A stretch of 64,000 nt of DNA from Mesorhizobium sp. B2-1-8. GTDB taxonomy: Bacteria > Pseudomonadota > Alphaproteobacteria > Rhizobiales > Rhizobiaceae. A program made the position numbers and the translations under genes. Shown here one piece after another: positions 45,324 to 58,109 of the stretch. The notes under the pieces are model-generated. The model ran no database searches. It was not told the origin of the DNA and saw nothing but the letters and a program-made list of their open reading frames with translations. The first letter of the stretch is position 1. Each line of letters starts with the position of its first letter. The DNA lies in NCBI RefSeq assembly GCF_006442545.2, contig NZ_CP083952.1, positions 2,349,501 through 2,413,500 on the forward strand, in the 5' to 3' direction.

Positions 45324-46148
45324 ATGTGGCTCCTGAAGCGCACGGCCTTCTATCTGCTGGTCGGGGCAATCGTGCTCATCGCGGTGTTCCCGTTCTACTA
45401 CGCCATCGTCACCAGCCTGAAATCGGGGACCGAGCTGTTTCAGGCCGATCCGTGGCCGAAGGCGCCCAGCCTCGGCAATTATCGCAACGTGCTGGCCGAA
45501 GGCGCCTTCGCGCGCAACCTCCTGAATTCGCTGGTCGTCTCGGGCGCGGTGGTGGCGCTCTCGCTGTTCCTTGGCGTCACCGCCGCCTACGCGCTGGCGC
45601 GCATCCGTTTTCGCGGCCGCTCGGCATTGCTGTTCGCCATCCTGTCGGTCTCGATGTTCCCACAAGTGGCGGTGCTGGCCGGGCTGTTCGAACTGGTGCG
45701 GATGTTCGGCCTCTACAATTCGCTCTTCGCGCTGATCTTCTCCTACATGATCTTCACGCTGCCGTTCACCGTCTGGGTGCTCACCGGCTTCGTCCGCGAC
45801 CTGCCGGTCGAGGTCGAGGAGGCGGCGATCCTCGATGGCGCGACGCCGTGGATCATCATCACCCGCATCTTCCTGCCGCTGATGTGGCCGGCGCTGGCGA
45901 CCACCGGACTGCTGGCCTTCATCGGCGCGTGGAACGAATTCCTGTTCGCGCTGACCTTCACCTCCAACGACGCGCGGCGGACCGTGCCGGTGGCAATCGC
46001 GCTGCTTTCGGGCAATTCGCAGTTCGAGATTCCGTGGGGCAACATCATGGCCGCCTCGGTGATCGTCACGGTGCCGCTGGTGGTGCTGGTGCTGATCTTC
46101 CAGCGCAAGATCGTCTCCGGCCTCACCGCCGGCGGGGTCAAGGGGTGA
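45324..46148 (+). CDS. Sugar ABC transporter permease 2 (ThuG-like)
   Basis: MalG-type permease of 274 residues, about six helices, with EAA loop VEEAAILDGATPWIIITRIF. It begins 1 base after the permease 1 stop. No ATPase gene follows: the next gene, 130 bases on, encodes an LprI-like protein. The importer therefore needs an ATPase encoded elsewhere. Confidence 0.92.
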   Translation: MWLLKRTAFYLLVGAIVLIAVFPFYYAIVTSLKSGTELFQADPWPKAPSLGNYRNVLAEGAFARNLLNSLVVSGAVVALSLFLGVTAAYALARIRFRGRSALLFAILSVSMFPQVAVLAGLFELVRMFGLYNSLFALIFSYMIFTLPFTVWVLTGFVRDLPVEVEEAAILDGATPWIIITRIFLPLMWPALATTGLLAFIGAWNEFLFALTFTSNDARRTVPVAIALLSGNSQFEIPWGNIMAASVIVTVPLVVLVLIFQRKIVSGLTAGGVKG

Positions 46149-46278
46149 TGGGCTTCGCTTCGGATAAACAATCGGATAAACAAACTGTCCACCAAGGCGG
46201 CAGGCGACATCTTGCCAGCATGCAGCCGGCCGCTAAGCTTCGTCTCCGCAGGGGCTTGTCGAAACCGGAGGAAACATC

Positions 46279-46698
46279 ATGCGGCTTCTGCTCTCCAGCC
46301 TTGCCACGCTGATCCTTGCCGCCCCGCACTTCGTAGGCACCGCGCGCGCCGCCGACTGCGCCGATGCGCAGGACCAGGCGACAATGAACCAGTGCGCCGG
46401 CAAGGATTTCGGCGCGGCCGACAAGAAGCTCAACGATGCCTACAAGCAGATCGTGGACCGGCTGAAGGACAATGCGGCGTCCAGGAAATTGCTGGTCGAT
46501 GCGCAGCGCGCCTGGGTCGCTTTCCGCGACGCTGAATGCAAGTTCCAGGGCGGCCCGATCGACACCGCGGGCACCATCTATCCGGTGGTCGTCGCCAATT
46601 GCCAGACGTCGCTCACCAATGGCCGGCTGAAGGATTTCCAGACCTATCTCAATTGCCCCGAAGGCGAATTGAACTGCCCGGTGCCAACGGCGCAATAG
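46279..46698 (+). CDS. LprI-like lysozyme-inhibitor family protein (DUF1311)
   Basis: Exported 139-residue protein: signal peptide about 1-24, then the DUF1311 domain (DCADAQDQATMNQCAGKDFG, KLNDAYKQIVDRLKDN, AQRAWVAFRDAECKFQGG) with four to six cysteines likely in disulfides. LprI of mycobacteria inhibits lysozyme; activity here is inferred from the family only. GGAGG precedes the ATG. Confidence 0.88.
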   Translation: MRLLLSSLATLILAAPHFVGTARAADCADAQDQATMNQCAGKDFGAADKKLNDAYKQIVDRLKDNAASRKLLVDAQRAWVAFRDAECKFQGGPIDTAGTIYPVVVANCQTSLTNGRLKDFQTYLNCPEGELNCPVPTAQ

Positions 46699-46840
46699 CC
46701 TTCATCCGCTCCTTTCGAAGACCCGGCTCGTGATCGGCGCGCCGGGTGCAAAAAATGTCGGAACCGACCGCGGTGAAACGTCCTTGGGTCGCAGAGCATC
46801 CGCGCCGGGACGCCGGCGCGACGACTTGAAGGAGCCGACC

Positions 46841-47584
46841 ATGATCACCTTTCCCAATGAATCCGCCAGATACCGCACCGCACGCGAAAAGCTGCTGAAG
46901 AAGGAAATCGAGCTGCGCCGCGCCATGGAAGCCGTGGCCGAGGCGCGGCGCACGCTGCCGCCGGGCGGGCTGGTGCCGCGGGACTATGTGTTCGACGGGC
47001 TGGATATCGCCGGCAAGACCGCAGAGATAAAACTGTCGGAGCTGTTCGCGCCCGGCAAGGACACGCTGATCCTCTATCAGATGATGTTTCCGCGCCACCC
47101 GCGGGAGACGCGCGATGTTGCGGCCAGCGGCGGCACGGCGAAGCTCGCCCGGCCCGACCAGCCGTGCCCGTCCTGCACGGCGCTGCTCGACCAGTTCGAC
47201 GGCGCGGTCGGCCATCTCGAGGCGGCCGGCTTCAACTTCGCCGTCGTGGCCAAGACGGCGCTCGAAAACCTCGTCACGCTCGGCCGCGATCGGGCGTGGC
47301 GCAACATGCGGCTGGTGTCTTCGGCCAACAACAGCTTCAAGCGCGACTACAACGCCGAGGATGCCGACGGCGCGCAGATCCCGCTGCTTCAGGTGTTTCA
47401 CCGCGATGCTGACGGCATCAGGCATTTCTGGTCGTCCGAACTCGGCTTCGCGCCGACCGAGCCCGGCCAAGACCCGCGCGCCATCGGCACCTGCGAGATC
47501 CTGTGGAACCTGATGGATTTCACCCCGGAGGGCCGGCCGGATTGGCATGAGCAGCTGCAGTATGGCGATTCCTGTTGTCACTGA
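46841..47584 (+). CDS. DUF899 thioredoxin-like protein
   Basis: A 247-residue cytoplasmic protein with the DUF899 fold: N-terminal helix (RTAREKLLKKEIELRRAMEA), GLVPRDYVFDG, and a C-x-x-C at C109/C112 (QPCPSCTALLDQFDG). It ends in SCCH. The family is thioredoxin-related with unknown substrate. AAGGAG before the ATG at 46841. Stands alone. Confidence 0.9.
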   Translation: MITFPNESARYRTAREKLLKKEIELRRAMEAVAEARRTLPPGGLVPRDYVFDGLDIAGKTAEIKLSELFAPGKDTLILYQMMFPRHPRETRDVAASGGTAKLARPDQPCPSCTALLDQFDGAVGHLEAAGFNFAVVAKTALENLVTLGRDRAWRNMRLVSSANNSFKRDYNAEDADGAQIPLLQVFHRDADGIRHFWSSELGFAPTEPGQDPRAIGTCEILWNLMDFTPEGRPDWHEQLQYGDSCCH

Positions 47585-47728
47585 CATCTGGGCGTTTCAG
47601 CTTCAGTCGCTGAGTTTCGGTTCGGAATGGCTTTTCTGCTGGTGAAGCTCTCGCTCAAGTCGGCCGGAACATTGGAAGATCGGCTGCATTGATAGGAGAC
47701 GGCTTGCGACCCCTTTCATGGATTCGAA

Positions 47729-48727
47729 GTGCGACCCACACTTAAAAACCTATGGGACCTGGTGCGAGAAAGCGTGGTTGGCTTTGTCGACGACAATGCC
47801 CTTAGTCATGGCGCGGCGATGGCCTTTTATGCCGCCACGTCGCTGGCCCCGGTTCTAATAATTGTCGTCGCGATAGTTGGCATCGCATTTGGTCATGACG
47901 CGGCACAGGTGGCTTTGTCTGCTCAGATATCAGGGCTGATGGGTTCAGAAAGTGCGGCGCTCCTTCAGGCAGCGCTCGAAGGGGCATCCAGCAAATCATC
48001 GGGGACCCTGGCGGCCATCATCGGCGTGGTCACTTTGCTCGTCACCGCCTCTGCGGTGTTTGGCGAGATGCAGCAGGCCCTGAATGCAATATGGAAGGTT
48101 GAAGCGAAAGGGAGTTCGCTGTCGCGTCTCTTGCGCGCGCGTGCGGCAAGTCTCGGCCTGGTCGCCGCCCTCGGCTTTATGTTGCTGGTATCTCTGGTGG
48201 CGAGCGCGGCGATCTCTGCCCTGGGCAACGTGATCAGCGCTCGTTTGCCGTTCGGCGAACTTGTTCTGAGCGCGATCAACACCCTGATTTCCTTTTCCCT
48301 GATCTCCGTGATGTTCGCCGCGATCTACAAAGTCCTGCCGGACCGTGACTTGGAGTGGCGGGATGTCGGGATCGGTGCTGTCGTGACCGCCGCCCTGTTC
48401 ACGTTGGGGAAGTCGCTTATCGGTTGGTATATCGGCACGAGTGCGATCGCATCATCATATGGTGCGGCCGGAGGGCTGCTCGTCATACTGCTCTGGGTCT
48501 ATTATTCATCGGAAATCTTTCTGCTCGGTGCGGAATTGACCCGCGCCTATTCCGTTCGACATGGGAGCAGGTCCGACTTGGACGGGTTGGTTCAAAATGC
48601 TCCCGCTTCACAAAACCTTGTTTCAATTCGCCGAGGGTCCAGATCCTCCGGCGTCGTTGCGTTGTTGGCGATGGCGTGCGTGAGCGCGACGATGACAGCC
48701 TTTCTGCTGGGGCCTCGTCGCCCGTAG
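47729..48727 (+). CDS. YihY/BrkB family inner-membrane protein
   Basis: A 332-residue integral membrane protein with about six to seven helices and the family features LSHGAAMAFYAATSLAPVLI near the N-terminus and SIASSYGAAGGLLVILLWVY-like sequence (SSYGAAGGLLVILLWVYYSS). It was once called RNase BN in error; its function is unresolved. GTG start at 47729. GC content and codon use look somewhat lower than its neighbours (by eye), so lateral acquisition is possible. Confidence 0.88.
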   Translation: MRPTLKNLWDLVRESVVGFVDDNALSHGAAMAFYAATSLAPVLIIVVAIVGIAFGHDAAQVALSAQISGLMGSESAALLQAALEGASSKSSGTLAAIIGVVTLLVTASAVFGEMQQALNAIWKVEAKGSSLSRLLRARAASLGLVAALGFMLLVSLVASAAISALGNVISARLPFGELVLSAINTLISFSLISVMFAAIYKVLPDRDLEWRDVGIGAVVTAALFTLGKSLIGWYIGTSAIASSYGAAGGLLVILLWVYYSSEIFLLGAELTRAYSVRHGSRSDLDGLVQNAPASQNLVSIRRGSRSSGVVALLAMACVSATMTAFLLGPRRP

Positions 48728-48856
48728 GGAGAGATCACGCTGCAATCCAAGGGTGCTTCCCCTTCTTCCTGCGCGAGGAGAAGGGACGCGGCTGGCAACC
48801 TCGCCGCATCTGCGACGTTGGAACCCCGAGGGAACCATTCCGATCGGAGATCCCAG

Positions 48857-49414
48857 ATGAAAATGCTCCTGACCGTGGCCGCCGTCGCGCTGACCGCCGT
48901 CGCGCCCGTCGCCCTTGCCCAGACGAACGGCACCAATTCGAATGCCGCCGCGCCCATGTTGCCCGACAGCAAGGTCGACACCGCGACCTTTGTCAGCACC
49001 GTGCCCAGTGCCAATGAATTCGAGATCCAGTCGAGCAGGCTGGCCGAACAGAAATCCGCCTCGGCGGACGTCAAGGCCTTTGCCGGCCAGATGATCAAGG
49101 ACCACACCAAGGCCGGCGAGGACTTCAAGCAGGCGCTGAGCCAGGGGCAGACCACCGCCTCGATCAAGCCCGCCGGCCCCGCGCTGCAGCCCAAGGACCA
49201 GCAGATGCTGGACCAGCTGAAAGCCGCCAGCGGCAAGGAGTTCGACCAGAAATACATCATGATGCAGACCGAGGTCCACAAGCAGGCGGTCGCCCTGTTC
49301 AGCACCTATGCGAAATCGGGCGACGACCCCGCATTGAAGGAATTCGCCAAGAAGACGCTGCCGACGCTGAAGATGCATGAGAAGCGGGTGAAGGAGCTCG
49401 GCGCGGCGCATTAG
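48857..49414 (+). CDS. DUF4142 periplasmic protein
   Basis: A 185-residue exported helical protein: signal peptide 1-21 (ending ALA), then the DUF4142 ferritin-like helical domain (ANEFEIQSSRLAEQKSASAD, FAGQMIKDHTKAGEDFK, AKKTLPTLKMHEKRVKEL). Such proteins are induced by envelope or osmotic stress in several bacteria; the exact role is unknown. GGAGA before the ATG at 48857. Confidence 0.9.
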   Translation: MKMLLTVAAVALTAVAPVALAQTNGTNSNAAAPMLPDSKVDTATFVSTVPSANEFEIQSSRLAEQKSASADVKAFAGQMIKDHTKAGEDFKQALSQGQTTASIKPAGPALQPKDQQMLDQLKAASGKEFDQKYIMMQTEVHKQAVALFSTYAKSGDDPALKEFAKKTLPTLKMHEKRVKELGAAH

Positions 49415-49445
49415 GGGGCGGGGCGTGCACGGTTTGAAATTCGAG

Positions 49446-49620
49446 CTCTACGGCGCCCCCCTCTGTCCTGCCGGACATCTCCCCCTCTTGGGGGGAGATT
49501 GGCTGTCATCACGGCCTTCGCCAATTTTCAACATTGCCAGGAAGAGAGCCGGCGCCAAAGCTGCCAATCTCCCCACTTGAGGGGGAGATGTCCGGCAGGA
49601 CAGAGGGGGGCGCCGTAGAG
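49446..49620. repeat. Long perfect inverted repeat, family D
   Basis: A 175-base element bounded by 40-base perfectly inverted arms (49446-49485 and 49581-49620; core CCTCTGTCCTGCCGGACATC), each adjoining its own cccc-tcttg-gggg type small hairpin. The centre holds ttcgccaattttcaacattgc, related to the centre of the family B element at 56930-57108. It accounts for most of the 310-base gap between the DUF4142 and cupin genes. Confidence 0.92.
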
Positions 49621-49724
49621 CGCTACATTCAATACGCCTCTGGCAAACCCCCACCCCGCAAGGTGGCCCCTGTGCCTTCACCCGCCATGCGCTAGACTGC
49701 CGGCATCACCCTCGGGAGCACCCC

Positions 49725-50189
49725 ATGCCCAAGATCGACCTCGCATCCGTGCCCGTCCGCAAGGGCTCCGGCTATCCCGCGCCCTTCGACGCCCCTTGCG
49801 CCACGCGCGCGCGCTGCCGCCTCGGCGATGCCGGCGGGCTCACCGATTTCGGCGTCAATCTGATGACCTTGCCGCCCGGTGGCTGGTCGAGCCAGCGCCA
49901 CTGGCACAGCCATGAGGACGAACTCGTCTATGTGCTGGAAGGCGAACTGGTGCTGGTCGAGGATGGCGGCGAGACGCTGCTCAAGGCCGGCGACTGCGCT
50001 ACCTTCGCTGGGAATAGCGGCAACGGCCACCACATGATCAACCGCTCGTCGGCCGCCGCGCGCTACCTGGAAGTCGGCTCGCGCTCTCAGGACGATGTGA
50101 TCACCTGCTCGGACATCGACATGATGAGCCCGAGTTCGGACGGGCGGTTCCTGCACAAGGACGGCACGCCGTATCCGGGGCAGGGGTGA
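49725..50189 (+). CDS. Cupin-domain protein
   Basis: A 154-residue single cupin with metal-ligand pattern in GGWSSQRHWHSHEDELVYVL (H, H, H, E) and GNGHHMINRS. It resembles small sugar-isomerase-like/cupin_2 proteins; substrate unknown. GGGAGCACCCC before the ATG. Confidence 0.88.
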   Translation: MPKIDLASVPVRKGSGYPAPFDAPCATRARCRLGDAGGLTDFGVNLMTLPPGGWSSQRHWHSHEDELVYVLEGELVLVEDGGETLLKAGDCATFAGNSGNGHHMINRSSAAARYLEVGSRSQDDVITCSDIDMMSPSSDGRFLHKDGTPYPGQG

Positions 50190-50265
50190 GGGCTGGGCCA
50201 TGCGTCCGCGCTGGCGTTCCGCCCGTGCCGGGATAAGCTGCCTATAACCGCAGGAGTCGGCGCAG

Positions 50266-50392
50266 CCCCCTCATCCGGCCGCTTTGCGTCCACCTTCTCC
50301 CCGCTGGGGAGAAGAGATTGGCGCTGGCGCTCGTAACCTCCTCCCCCCTCGGGGAGAGGTCAGCCGAGCGAAGCGGAGGCTGGGTGAGGGGG
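50266..50392. repeat. Intergenic inverted-repeat element
   Basis: A 127-base element between the cupin and ridA genes, bounded by CCCCCTCA (50266-50273) and TGAGGGGG (50385-50392), with internal ccttctccccgctggggagaag and ctcccccctcggggag hairpins. The plan is as in families A/B, but the sequence is distinct. Confidence 0.65.
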
Positions 50393-50428
50393 CCTGGCGC
50401 TAACCTTGCCAACCCAGGGAGGACACCC

Positions 50429-50821
50429 ATGAAAAAACAAGTCATCGAAGTACCCGTCATGTCGGACAAGGTGCGGGCGCTCGGCCTGCCCTGTTCGACG
50501 GCGGTGAGGGCGAACGGCTTCGTGTTCATCTCGGCGACGCCGCCGCTGGATATGGTGACCGGCGAGATGGTGCGCGGCGACATCGAGGTCCAGACCGAGG
50601 CGTCGCTGAAGGCGCTGAAACTTTGCCTGGAAGCGGCCGGCACCTCGCTGGAAAACGTGGTGATGGTCCGGATCTACGCCGTCAACTCCGGCTTCTACAA
50701 CGCGATAAACAGGGTGTATGCCCGGTATTTCAGCGTGAACCCGCCGGCGCGCAGTTTCGTGCCGGTGGCGTCTTGGCCGATGGAGTTCGATATCGAGATC
50801 GAGTGCGTGGCGGTGGCGTGA
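50429..50821 (+). CDS. RidA/YjgF family protein
   Basis: A 130-residue Rid protein. RidA hydrolyses reactive enamine/imine intermediates from PLP enzymes. The conserved Arg is in NPPARSFVPVASWPMEF, and the trimer core GDIEVQTEASLKALKLCLEA is present. GGGAGGACACCC precedes the ATG at 50429. It is the last ordinary gene before the AT-rich island. Confidence 0.92.
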   Translation: MKKQVIEVPVMSDKVRALGLPCSTAVRANGFVFISATPPLDMVTGEMVRGDIEVQTEASLKALKLCLEAAGTSLENVVMVRIYAVNSGFYNAINRVYARYFSVNPPARSFVPVASWPMEFDIEIECVAVA

Positions 50822-51013
50822 GGGCTTATGTTCTTGCCGGCCGAGTGCCGAATGTTACTTAAGGCGGGTCATCACGAAAACTTGCCACATACATCGACAG
50901 CGACCACCTGACTACTGCGGTCAAAGACGGCGCCTGGGCATCAACTAGGCCCATGCCGGGTGCCGTCTCTGGCGGCGTCAGATGCGAATATCCAAGACGG
51001 ATATCACATGGCG

Positions 51014-52132
51014 TTATTCGGCCGGCGCCAACGTCTCCAAAGCCAGCCGAATATCGCGGACTGTGCGCCTGAGAAGGCCGGAGCCGACGCTTGCATTCGG
51101 CCTTCTACTACTGACGGCCTCAAGCATTGCATGCAAAGCCAAACTCACCCGCGGTGACTTTCTTACAATTGACAAAGCCTCACCAGCAAATGCTTCGCCT
51201 AAATGCTCTGAGAGATAGAGCGTATCCCTCTCAGTTTGTCTATTAGGATCTGAAATTAGCCGTACAGCCGTTTGAAGCGCTTCGACGTACGCTTCTTCAT
51301 GATCTTTGTATTCATTAGTCTTTCGCGCTCGCGACACAAGCAAAAGCCTAGCTTGGTGGTGATCAAGCATAAAGGTGTCGTAATAACTCATCTCTCTTGC
51401 AAGGCTTTTTGCTGTATCAAGCCTCCTTTGAGAAAGCTCGTATTCCCCGTTAATGTAAAGAGCTATACTGTATTGCTGCCAAAAATGTATGTTACTCTTC
51501 TCTATCCCGGTGTCTGCGAACGATCGGAACAAAGATATGATACTGTCAAGATCTGGTGCGCCGCCAGGCTGAACAAGTATCCTCTGCAAACTTCCATACT
51601 GCATTACATCTCGTCTGAAATCGCTAAACTCGTGGTTTCCAAATTCAGATGATTTCACAAATGAGTTTTCAATCACGGACTTGATACGATCTGCGCGGAA
51701 CAAGGACTTCAACATCTCTCTGGAAAATATGGAGGACGGAACTGCATACTCGCCATTCTTTATGTATATAATATTGAAATTACCATATAAAAAGTTTACA
51801 GAAGCTAGGTCGTAAGAGCGCTTAGAAATAAGCTTATTTATGATGTTTATCTTCGCCGACCTGCCAAGATATGAATATATCATGGACAGAATCACTAGGT
51901 CTGTAAGAGATTCACTAATCCAATCAATTCTGGCAACTTCATTGTGCAGCACGTCTAAAAGGCGTCTCTGATGGAGGTGGCCGATGGATAAGGTTCTAAA
52001 TTCTCCCTTGCATTCTTTCAGGACATATCTTTGCTTTTCTGCAATCCCCCTCCCTTGAAGATCTCCCCAAAGCCCATGTCTGTCATAGATTTGGTTAAGG
52101 TCATTAAATTCGGAAATAGACAATGTCGGTCG
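51014..52132 (-). pseudogene. C-terminal half of a SIR2-STAND gene, out of frame
   Basis: About 370 codons without a credible start (TTG at 52123, no ribosome site), overlapping the SIR2 ORF by about 110 bases in another frame. The first residues, LSISEFNDLNQIYDRHGLWG followed by AEKQRYVLKEC, look like the helical/winged-helix end of a STAND NTPase. The rest is helical-repeat sequence (RRLDTAKSLAREMSYYDTFM, ALQTAVRLIS). Walker A and Walker B regions are missing. It is visibly AT-rich with rare-codon character unlike the flanks. Read as the 3' part of one ancestral gene with the SIR2 ORF. Confidence 0.75.
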
Positions 52133-53136
52133 GCGTGGACGAGGTGAAACCGCTTTCCCTCCTCTATGGAAGCTACGATGCTGTCTTGAATTTCCCTTTT
52201 TAGCAGAACTGGAGAGCTGCTTGTTCGATCAAACTCAGCCAATTCCAAGTTGTGGTGACCGAAAAAATGTACGTCTTCTGCGGCCTTAGAAGAAGCTATA
52301 TCTATCGGTGTAATTTCTGAGATCTTTCGCAGAAACTGAGGTATTGCAACCTCGGACGCTCTCTCCGCGTACGGAGGGACCAGACGGCTAAATTCTTCTA
52401 TTCCGCCAAAATATATGTTTCCGTACTCGGCGAGTCTGTATTTGAGTTCCTCGTTATCTTCACTATCTTTTCTTAATATAAAGAATGTCTTGTCTTTTGT
52501 GTATGGTGATTTACTTAGTATTTTCTCGATATGCCAATCAGAAAGGCTAAAGCCGCAGAAGAAAATCGCTGAAGACGTCTCTATGTCTCTCTGTAAAAAA
52601 TCCCAATATTTATGGTTAGTTTCATATGACGCGTACTGCTCTCTGGTTAGAAGGAGTGCATCTCTGTAGTCATTTTCATTTAGGTCGTCAATAAATCCAT
52701 GAAGATGGACAATAGGGATTTGTACATCGTAGAACTGAAAGGGAGAGTAAGGCGAAATCGGCCGTAATCCTATATTTATATCCCTTTCTACTAGCTCAAC
52801 GCAATCGTCATAGTTCGTTGTATATATTGATCTCCAATTTGAAAATAGCGTTTTCCTATGCCATTCTTTGTATTTTAAAACTTTAACGTTGGATCTCATT
52901 AAGTTTACGTATTCATTTACTCTGCTCGCTGTAGGGCTCCTTAGATATTCTCTGGCTGTTATATCTAAAGGTAGCGAGGGTGACATCCCAACTTTCGTCG
53001 CGAAGATCTCGCTAAGTTTCTTAACGGAAGGTACCGGCTCTTTGTCTACGGCCACCAATTCCGAACTAAAGCCAGCTCCTAAGAACAAGGTGGCTTTCCC
53101 GATCGAGATGAACCTTACCGCAGTTTCGATTTCCAT
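52018..53136 (-). CDS. SIR2-like (SIR2_2) NADase-domain protein, truncated STAND protein
   Basis: A 372-residue ORF from ATG 53136 (GGGAG upstream; frame open to 53187). The SIR2 core is complete: TLFLGAGFSSE, IYTTNYDDCVELV with the catalytic Asn, IVHLHGFIDD with the catalytic His, and FFCGFSLSDWHIEKIL. After about residue 300 it enters a linker (FDRTSSSPVLLKREIQDSIV, EEGKRFHLVHAD) where a P-loop would be expected. The frame then shifts to nonsense and stops at 52018. SIR2 domains fused to STAND NTPases are NAD-depleting antiphage effectors. Whether this truncated form is made or toxic is unknown. Confidence 0.8.
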   Translation of the reverse strand: MEIETAVRFISIGKATLFLGAGFSSELVAVDKEPVPSVKKLSEIFATKVGMSPSLPLDITAREYLRSPTASRVNEYVNLMRSNVKVLKYKEWHRKTLFSNWRSIYTTNYDDCVELVERDINIGLRPISPYSPFQFYDVQIPIVHLHGFIDDLNENDYRDALLLTREQYASYETNHKYWDFLQRDIETSSAIFFCGFSLSDWHIEKILSKSPYTKDKTFFILRKDSEDNEELKYRLAEYGNIYFGGIEEFSRLVPPYAERASEVAIPQFLRKISEITPIDIASSKAAEDVHFFGHHNLELAEFDRTSSSPVLLKREIQDSIVASIEEGKRFHLVHADRHCLFPNLMTLTKSMTDMGFGEIFKGGGLQKSKDMS

Positions 53137-53219
53137 TGATACCCCGCTCCCTATCGAAAATAGAGAAGGGTGGCTCGGAGTTGTCAAGCCTTATCGTGTG
53201 TTAAAAATCGCAAACACTT

Positions 53220-56723
<3,504 letters not shown>

Positions 56724-56929
56724 GTCTATGAATTCCGTTCGGCAGCGGGCTTGCACAAAAAACCGGGACGGGAAGACCCGGCCGGTTGTGCTCGCGATTC
56801 TGGTATCAGGCTAGGAGGGCCTTATAGGGAAGAGTTTTGCCCGATGTAACCCCGAAAATGAAGGGTTCATGTGGGGTTCGTGGACAGGGGCAATTGCTTT
56901 GGGTTGAATTGGTATCTTGCCGGGCGTTT

Positions 56930-57108
56930 GCGCCGCCCCTCATTGCCCTGCCGGGCATTTCTCCCCGTATAGTGACGGGGAGAAAGAAGCTCTGTCCGAT
57001 GGTTTCGCCAATTGCCAGCATTGCGGGAAGAGGGCCGGCACTCGTTCAGCCCCTTCTCCCCGTCGCTATACGGGGAGAAGATGCCGGCAGGCAGATGAGG
57101 GGCAGCGC
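56930..57108. repeat. Intergenic inverted-repeat element, family B (double unit)
   Basis: About 179 bases: gcgccgcccctcat...ccgtatagtgacggggagaa on the left mirrored by ttctccccgtcgctatacgg...atgaggggcagcgc on the right, with a central block ttcgccaattgccagcattgcgg. It occupies the 435-base gap upstream of carB; the remaining bases next to carB hold no recognised gene. Confidence 0.88.
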
Positions 57109-57158
57109 CGACGTCGGTAATTGGCTGATCGCTGCACGCGCAGCAATCACCGCGACCT

Positions 57159-57938
57159 TCAGTCCCCCAGCACCACCGTATCGACAATCTCGAACCGCTC
57201 CGACACGCCGATGCGGATCATGTTGAGGTTGCCTTCCCTGGTGAAGCGGAAGTTGCTGCCGGCGTCCGAGCTTGCCGGCAGGCCGGCATCGAAGGAGATG
57301 ACGCGGCTGCCGCCATCGGGCCAGGTCACGGTGACGTCGGCCTTATCAGTTCCCTTGCGCGTCACGCTGGCCGCACAAGACGCCATGGGCTGTCCAACAT
57401 AGCGGGCGCAGGGAATTTGCAGGGTTCCATTCGCCGCCAGCGCCAGGCCATAGGCATCCTGCATGGCGATCTCCGCCGCGGATTTCGGCATGGTCTCCGG
57501 GCTGGCCGGCTCGGTCGCGTCACCCAGCCGAGCGGTCAGGTCGGGGGCATCGGAAGTCGCGCCGGCTTCCGTGGCCTCGGCGTCCGCCGCCTGGTCGGGC
57601 ACCGTCGCCGGATTGACGGGCACGAGATAGCGCGCGGGGGCCCAGCCGGTGGCTTTGGGGTTGTCAGACTCGACCTTGCACCAGGGATGGCCGTCAATGT
57701 CGTTGCAGCCGAGGTTTCTGACGCTCGCACCGGCAGCCAGGCGGGCCTCGGTCTTGCCGATCGCCGACGGCTTGGCGCGGACATTGAGCAGATCGTCGGG
57801 GGCGAGCCCGGTGACCACGGAGATGAACGGCGCCTCTTCGGCATGCGCCGGAACAACAGCCGGCCACGCCGCCATCAGCAGCGGAGCGGCAATCAGCGCA
57901 TGCAAACTTTTTCGGAGCGTAACTGTGCGCCTCATCAT
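57159..57938 (-). CDS. Exported SH3-domain protein
   Basis: A 259-residue periplasmic protein: signal peptide about 1-34 (ending AHA), a bacterial SH3 domain (about 37-110, VTGLAPDDLLNVRAKPSAIG, VRNLGCNDIDGHPWCKVES), an Ala/Glu-rich linker, and a C-terminal beta domain (about 165-259) with two Cys (IPCARYVGQPMASCAA). Such proteins bind peptidoglycan or act as envelope sensors; function unproven. Start taken at ATG 57938; 57959 is possible. Confidence 0.85.
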   Translation of the reverse strand: MMRRTVTLRKSLHALIAAPLLMAAWPAVVPAHAEEAPFISVVTGLAPDDLLNVRAKPSAIGKTEARLAAGASVRNLGCNDIDGHPWCKVESDNPKATGWAPARYLVPVNPATVPDQAADAEATEAGATSDAPDLTARLGDATEPASPETMPKSAAEIAMQDAYGLALAANGTLQIPCARYVGQPMASCAASVTRKGTDKADVTVTWPDGGSRVISFDAGLPASSDAGSNFRFTREGNLNMIRIGVSERFEIVDTVVLGD

Positions 57939-58109
57939 TTGGCCGTGCGCCGTACTCAAATCACTCTGTCGCGGCGGTCTCGCCGCACGCCCGGACGATT
58001 TTATAAGGGACGGCGCGCCGCCATGTAAGCCGGAAAATTCAAGCCGACCATGGCGGTAACCATGGTGCCGGGTGGCCGCCTCTCACCGCTTCGCGAGGGG
58101 GAAATGATC

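Follow-up and report, generated by a model that had tools for sequence, protein, structure and literature searches.

A broken SIR2-STAND gene of probable Avs5 type in a variable slot between carB and a RidA-like gene of Mesorhizobium

Our analysis of a window of 64,000 nucleotides from Mesorhizobium sp. B2-1-8 (contig NZ_CP083952.1, positions 2,349,501 to 2,413,500) supported the view that an AT-rich island between a gene which we take to be carB and a RidA-like gene is very probably the remnant of a single antiphage gene of the EfAvs5 type (SIR2-STAND), disrupted by a deletion with a net size of about 310 nucleotides. Two overlapping open reading frames (ORFs) on the minus strand of this island (52018-53187 and 51014-52123) are the halves of one SIR2-STAND protein, the first comprising the SIR2 domain and the second the C-terminal part. 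The initial annotation, derived from the sequence alone, had already described both ORFs at these positions and was correct in substance.

Two frames of one ancestral protein

A search with both pieces joined end to end as the query resulted in 104 protein relatives, 92 of which were 700-910 amino acids (aa) in length. Single proteins of 722-903 aa matching both pieces, with SIR2 first, accounted for 83 of the 104 relatives. The remaining 21 matched the SIR2 piece only, and none matched the C-terminal piece only. A common origin of the two ORFs had been proposed beforehand, with the lack of a longer spanning protein, or halves normally encoded separately, named as the outcome speaking against it; the opposite was found. 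The homologue had been expected to have 900-1100 residues, which the 722-903 aa of the 83 spanning relatives do not support; seven matches of 983-1050 aa did not contain both pieces.

In the 83 spanning relatives the two pieces are separated by a median of 106 residues (quartiles 104 and 110) without counterpart in the window. The closest intact relative, P0009, has 807 aa and is 65-68% identical. Its residues 1-336 correspond to the SIR2 piece (220/336 identical) and residues 442-807 to the C-terminal piece (248/366 identical), leaving 105 residues in between unaccounted for. P0009 matched four of 397 whole genomes of the order at an expectation value (E) of 1e-30, namely the genome of the window in two frames and three others, each with a single open frame of 821-861 aa. 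Genome G498 of the genus encodes an 802-aa protein that spans both pieces at an identity of 22-25%.

Apart from the genome of the window, 4 of the 394 genomes of the family matched the C-terminal piece, all of them weakly. As a query of its own against proteins of about 203-645 aa, it found just itself and one 298-aa protein encoded on a 983-base contig. Hence, no family of free-standing halves emerged. This protein, P0002, is the nearest C-terminal relative (84% identical); it lacks 14 residues of the window and may be a fragment. In a cluster of two members (P0001, 7,366-base contig) the C-terminal half is present as a separate 289-aa protein, perhaps from the same strain. Among the matches listed for the SIR2 piece in the 146 genomes of the genus, nothing exceeded 32% identity beyond the own genome, and no close relatives were confirmed in the genome-contig and viral-contig collections scanned. 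The genome also encodes a second, distant SIR2-type protein (G000 C1:889752-890399, locus L002) at 31% identity in an open frame of 296 aa, and weak matches of this kind recur throughout the genus.

As previously noted, the island is AT-rich: in windows of 500 base pairs (bp) the guanine-plus-cytosine (GC) content is 38-48% at 51000-53249 compared with 56-69% at 46000-50999 and 53250-57999. Since GC is low and no close relative was found in the genus, horizontal acquisition of the gene would fit the data. The longest open frame has 404 codons, whereas at most 213 were reached in 300 mononucleotide shuffles.

The likely start of the SIR2 piece is the ATG at 53136, which was set by the relatives (MEIETAV versus MKIETAV in P0009). 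All three SIR2 motifs described initially, GAGFS, TTNYD, and HLHG, are intact, and the SIR2_2 domain scored well above the Pfam cut-off of 24.5 bits (Table 1). This piece terminates with HLVHAD at the position where the P-loop is expected to begin. The 3' piece had no Pfam or PADLOC match on its own, and as start codons its frame offers only a TTG close to the junction and an internal ATG. A P-loop of the type GK[ST] was found neither in the C-terminal piece nor in the SIR2 piece beyond residue 291.

At the junction the two frames matching P0009 overlap by 7 bases. According to our arithmetic a net loss of about 310 nucleotides equals 1 modulo 3, which is consistent with the observed frames. 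The junction lies where it had been placed initially. The cgac/cgac microhomology assigned to it is just a tandem, CGACCGAC, which is uninformative on the deletion, and on microhomology as its candidate cause, because the undeleted DNA would be needed for comparison. Repeats within 50700-53400 were restricted to short, chance-like pairs, and a scan of the region for promoters and terminators remained at the level of the shuffles with no excess.

Table 1. Features of the broken gene and of the slot that it occupies
Feature	Position in the window	Strand	Basis
5' piece with SIR2 domain plus linker (336 residues read in the ancestral frame)	52129..53136	-	translation, P0009 alignment
SIR2_2 domain (PF13289), residues 103-239	52420..52830	-	Pfam, 67.4 bits
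Out-of-frame end of the truncated SIR2 ORF (36 residues followed by the stop codon)	52018..52128	-	translation; P0009 matches the other frame here
Deletion/frameshift junction	52124..52135	-	matches to P0009 1-336 and 438-806 in two different frames
3' piece with the part following the NTPase core plus the helical C-terminal part (369 residues, then the stop codon)	51014..52123	-	P0009 alignment
Cargo slot from the carB stop codon to that of the RidA-like gene, occupied by the broken gene	50822..53219	.	
carB, left wall of the slot	53220..56756	-	
RidA-like gene, right wall of the slot	50429..50821	+	

The missing core and kinship with Avs5

Direct comparison with P0009 identified the missing 105 residues as the stretch beginning with the P-loop and covering the remainder of the nucleoside triphosphatase (NTPase) core, which bears out the reported absence of this core and sizes the deletion by alignment to an intact homologue, as had been suggested. 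Across 59 aligned relatives, 40 columns were conserved to at least 90%. Three of these, G340, K341, and R416 in the numbering of P0009, fall in the missing stretch; by their position G340/K341 belong to the P-loop and R416 is likely to represent the arginine finger. At 36 of the 37 remaining conserved sites the window is unchanged, and the single change is shared with P0010. In the AlphaFold model of P0009 (mean predicted local distance difference test, pLDDT, 86.8; predicted template modelling score, pTM, 0.74), residues 337-441 extend from the P-loop through the final strand of the alpha/beta core. The SIR2 piece still ends with the opening strand of this core (residues 330-335), and the C-terminal region is helical in this model.

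P0009 and P0010 have the same residue at 158 C-terminal sites, of which the window alone deviated at 2 and P0002 alone at 5; thus, there was no sign of accelerated decay. Since, in addition, nearly all conserved sites were kept and no other stops were present, the sequence comparison suggests that the break is recent.

The family profile matched the solved EfAvs5 structure end to end with 777.6 bits. The gene is therefore regarded as an EfAvs5-type remnant, in line with the Avs5-like domain order noted initially. Individually, the SIR2 piece matched EfAvs5 (9jap) in phmmer searches at an E of 4.2e-22, and the C-terminal piece matched its residues 500-770 at an E of 8.8e-10. EfAvs5 (PDB 9jap), a SIR2-STAND protein, belongs to Avs5 clade 3 (PMC12931631). 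The same study defines the SIR2 motifs of Avs5 as GAGxS, TTNxD, and HG or NG and reports the Walker A residues of PaAvs5 as essential (PMC12931631). Like EfAvs5, the window copy has an N-terminal SIR2 domain with motifs of these types and, by the match to residues 500-770, keeps the C-terminal helical repeat part. It differs in the lack of the central STAND NTPase with its Walker A motif and arginine finger and in being split into two frames instead of one continuous frame of about 800 aa. P0003, a SIR2 protein from an E. coli plasmid whose sequence by eye is almost that of 9jap, shares about 26% identity with each piece. For the SIR2 effectors DSR2 and ThsA, the family profile matched at sequence level the SIR2 part only. 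Another E. coli plasmid (CP042642.1, locus L064, 2551-5113) carries an EfAvs5-like gene annotated as two coding sequences, possibly another broken copy.

Several observations weigh against the assignment to a single EfAvs5-type gene broken by deletion. The deletion and its ends were derived from a protein of 65-68% identity and not from an intact allele. Of the 83 spanning relatives, only 61 have a strict GxGK[ST] motif in the stretch joining the two pieces. The available Avs5 models matched the SIR2 part only weakly (PADLOC PDLC02170, 26.9 bits; NCBIfam NF041814, 30.7 bits), and the latter score is far below the cut-off of 1000; for the intact relatives P0003, P0005, and P0006, NF041814 was likewise not among the matches at an E of 0.1. 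Furthermore, the junction was read from the assembled sequence, with a small chance of an assembly error.

Following the published Avs5 work, the intact protein would act as a sensor in which a phage protein is recognised by the helical part at the C-terminus, with the central NTPase contributing adenosine triphosphate binding and complex assembly and the N-terminal SIR2 domain destroying nicotinamide adenine dinucleotide (NAD+). The deletion took away the nucleotide-binding core and shifted the remainder out of frame, and because of these two effects the copy could presumably no longer be triggered. Most likely it gives no immunity, and at most an idle SIR2 fragment would be produced.

Alternatively, the SIR2 fragment might be constitutively active and either be retained as mildly useful or silenced as toxic, which we regard as improbable. 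Judging from their titles, the solved structures of several Avs5 and ThsA relatives represent filaments or helical assemblies, so that an isolated SIR2 domain is probably idle. Moreover, the promoter scan listed no sigma-70-like candidate on the minus strand upstream, the number in the region as a whole was not in excess (4 compared with a shuffle mean of 4.1), and selection would be expected to act against a free NADase.

A split but working two-part system, with the SIR2 and C-terminal fragments made separately and acting together without the NTPase, would agree with two long open frames, intact SIR2 catalytic motifs, and the preservation of 36 of the 37 conserved sites. Such a system is very unlikely, as each of the 83 spanning relatives is a single protein, the C-terminal query found beyond itself just one short-contig protein in the length range of the tool, the start options of its frame are limited to the TTG and the internal ATG, and the Walker A residues are essential in PaAvs5 (PMC12931631). 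There is equally little to recommend an assembly artefact concealing an intact gene: the lack of reads at the junction leaves room for it, but the assembly comprises two contigs and is 99.99% complete, a loss of about 310 nucleotides with clean flanks is atypical for a base-calling error, and the half protein P0001 was also found on its 7,366-base contig, though perhaps from the same strain.

By itself, the broken EfAvs5-type gene is of modest interest, a common kind of pseudogene from a defence family described only recently that can serve as a naturally occurring STAND-core deletion. More can be gained from the slot, as it offers a single address across a genus of 146 genomes (probably the nitrogen-fixing Mesorhizobium) for collecting small candidate defence genes and, with the same walls and different cargo, makes the turnover of defence countable.

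The carB-RidA slot and its cargo

The name carB follows the initial annotation, and the labels RidA (not assigned by a profile search), cupin, and DUF4142 are presumptive. The last 900 bases of carB had a match in 143 of the 146 genomes of the genus. Downstream stretches were obtained from 136 of the 142 other carB-matching genomes, 6 being omitted because of contig edges or partial matches, and gave 137 loci including the window. A downstream gene resembling the RidA, cupin, or DUF4142 gene of the window served as anchor and was found in 115 loci; 22 loci, some at contig ends, had no anchor within reach. In 81 of the 137 loci the RidA-like gene was the first anchor after carB.

The gap between carB and the anchor measured at least 600 bp in 105 of the 115 anchored loci (median 2041 bp, median GC 0.486) and 20-394 bp in the remaining 10, among them a nearly empty site of 295 bp in G498. 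As a control, the slot exceeded 600 bp in 44 of 47 loci, compared with 8 of those 47 for the adjoining RidA-cupin gap. 84 filled slots, including the window, were AT-rich (<56% GC), and their longest genes form 52 clusters; the 21 GC-rich intervals among the 105 filled ones were excluded from cargo sampling. Because the slot lies between the 3'-ends of two convergent genes, inserts cut no promoter.

With constant core-gene walls and variable cargo, the carB-RidA slot is a fresh example of the known core defence hotspot type. Among the matches listed from the part of the literature searched, no description of a carB slot in Mesorhizobium was found. The hotspots cDHS1 and cDHS2 of P. aeruginosa share walls of constant core genes, a changing cargo that is lower in GC and includes antiphage genes, and the lack of a single mobile element (PMC10250203). 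In contrast to these, with reported medians of 26 kb (cDHS1) and 6 kb (PMC10250203), the slot behind carB holds one small cassette (median 2.0 kb) and is genus-wide. According to the same source, cDHS2 also has a RidA-like flank marker.

Cargo content was analysed for 30 of 51 non-redundant principal ORFs, chosen at random with a fixed seed and excluding the window; principal ORFs were defined by our own ORF picker and not by annotation. At an E of 1e-5, PADLOC models matched 13 of the 30 cargo genes and none of 10 random window genes (one-sided exact probability about 0.01, own arithmetic). The 10 genes with at least 60 bits matched dCTPase (526), bSEFIR (330), RT_III-A (306), PDC-M31A (245, also AriA), NsnA (198), Hydrolase (161), PDC-M34A (126), AriA (92, also Old), Aga_SIR2 (75), and PDC-S49 (66). 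Relative to the control the cargo appears to be enriched in putative antiphage genes. Two points count against this enrichment: the control is small (10 genes from one window), and 3 of the 13 matches are weak (LmuB, 27 bits; dGTPase, 25 bits; a helix-turn-helix model, 24 bits).

No PADLOC match at this E was obtained for 17 of the 30 principal genes. Pfam was run on 20 cargo genes (9 without PADLOC match, the weak helix-turn-helix one, and 10 outside the sample) and found, among others, NACHT, reverse transcriptase, Schlafen AlbA_2, AIPR, HSDR_N, DNA methylase, AAA_21, and pentapeptide repeats; 6 of the 20 had no Pfam match. Comparison within the set revealed split cargo genes at four other loci (L145, L178, L187, and L188), and thus the broken occupant of the window is not unique. 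A different, intact SIR2 gene of 668 aa (PADLOC Aga_SIR2) occupies the same slot in G430 (L089, 5986-7989), the locus closest to the window over the last 300 bases of carB (93.6%). Over 900 bases G435 is closer (96%), and its slot contains other genes.

Cargo turnover was assessed in pairs of AT-rich loci by their aligned identity over the last 300 bases of carB. None of 17 pairs with at least 95% identity shared a cargo cluster. At lower identities the numbers were 2 of 71 (94-95%), 3 of 177 (93-94%), 24 of 865 (91-93%), 39 of 1445 (89-91%), and 20 of 911 (<89%). Cargo identity exceeded carB identity only in the same-cargo pairs L087/L099, L077/L087, and L077/L099, which carry a PDC-S49-type cassette. 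Recent transfer is therefore supported at best for these three pairs; in the other same-cargo pairs listed, cargo identity was lower than that of carB or no alignment was found.

No integrase family was among the matches listed for 40 cargo genes searched with PADLOC, Pfam, or both, a screen covering part of the slots. Transposase-like ORFs were seen by eye at two loci (L104 and L161). The margins of the window's slot shared no sequence with other loci on either side. Exchange of cargo by recombination in the conserved walls is likely the simplest account, and the gene of the window would have arrived by such an exchange. This idea has also been raised for the P. aeruginosa hotspots (PMC10250203). 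On balance, we favour a picture in which carB-RidA is a genus-wide Mesorhizobium defence slot for one cassette at a time, with small AT-rich antiphage cassettes lacking integrases of their own being swapped by wall recombination. Turnover would be fast, as in the 17 pairs without common cargo, many of the unmatched genes would represent undescribed antiphage systems, and broken occupants would be a normal stage.

A rhizobial-type palindromic repeat was found at most 150 bp after the carB stop codon in 35 of the 105 filled loci (e.g. L078, L080, and L084). Its density there is about 2 per kb (own arithmetic) versus 0.12 per kb downstream of the slot. It was absent from the window's own slot and occurred in none of the 105 loci within 400 bp of the other wall. 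It thus does not bracket the cargo and was rejected as a recombination site; it may act as a terminator. Another dispersed palindromic repeat lies beside the cupin-like gene of the window (49445-49624), and several related loci contain matches to it in both orientations.
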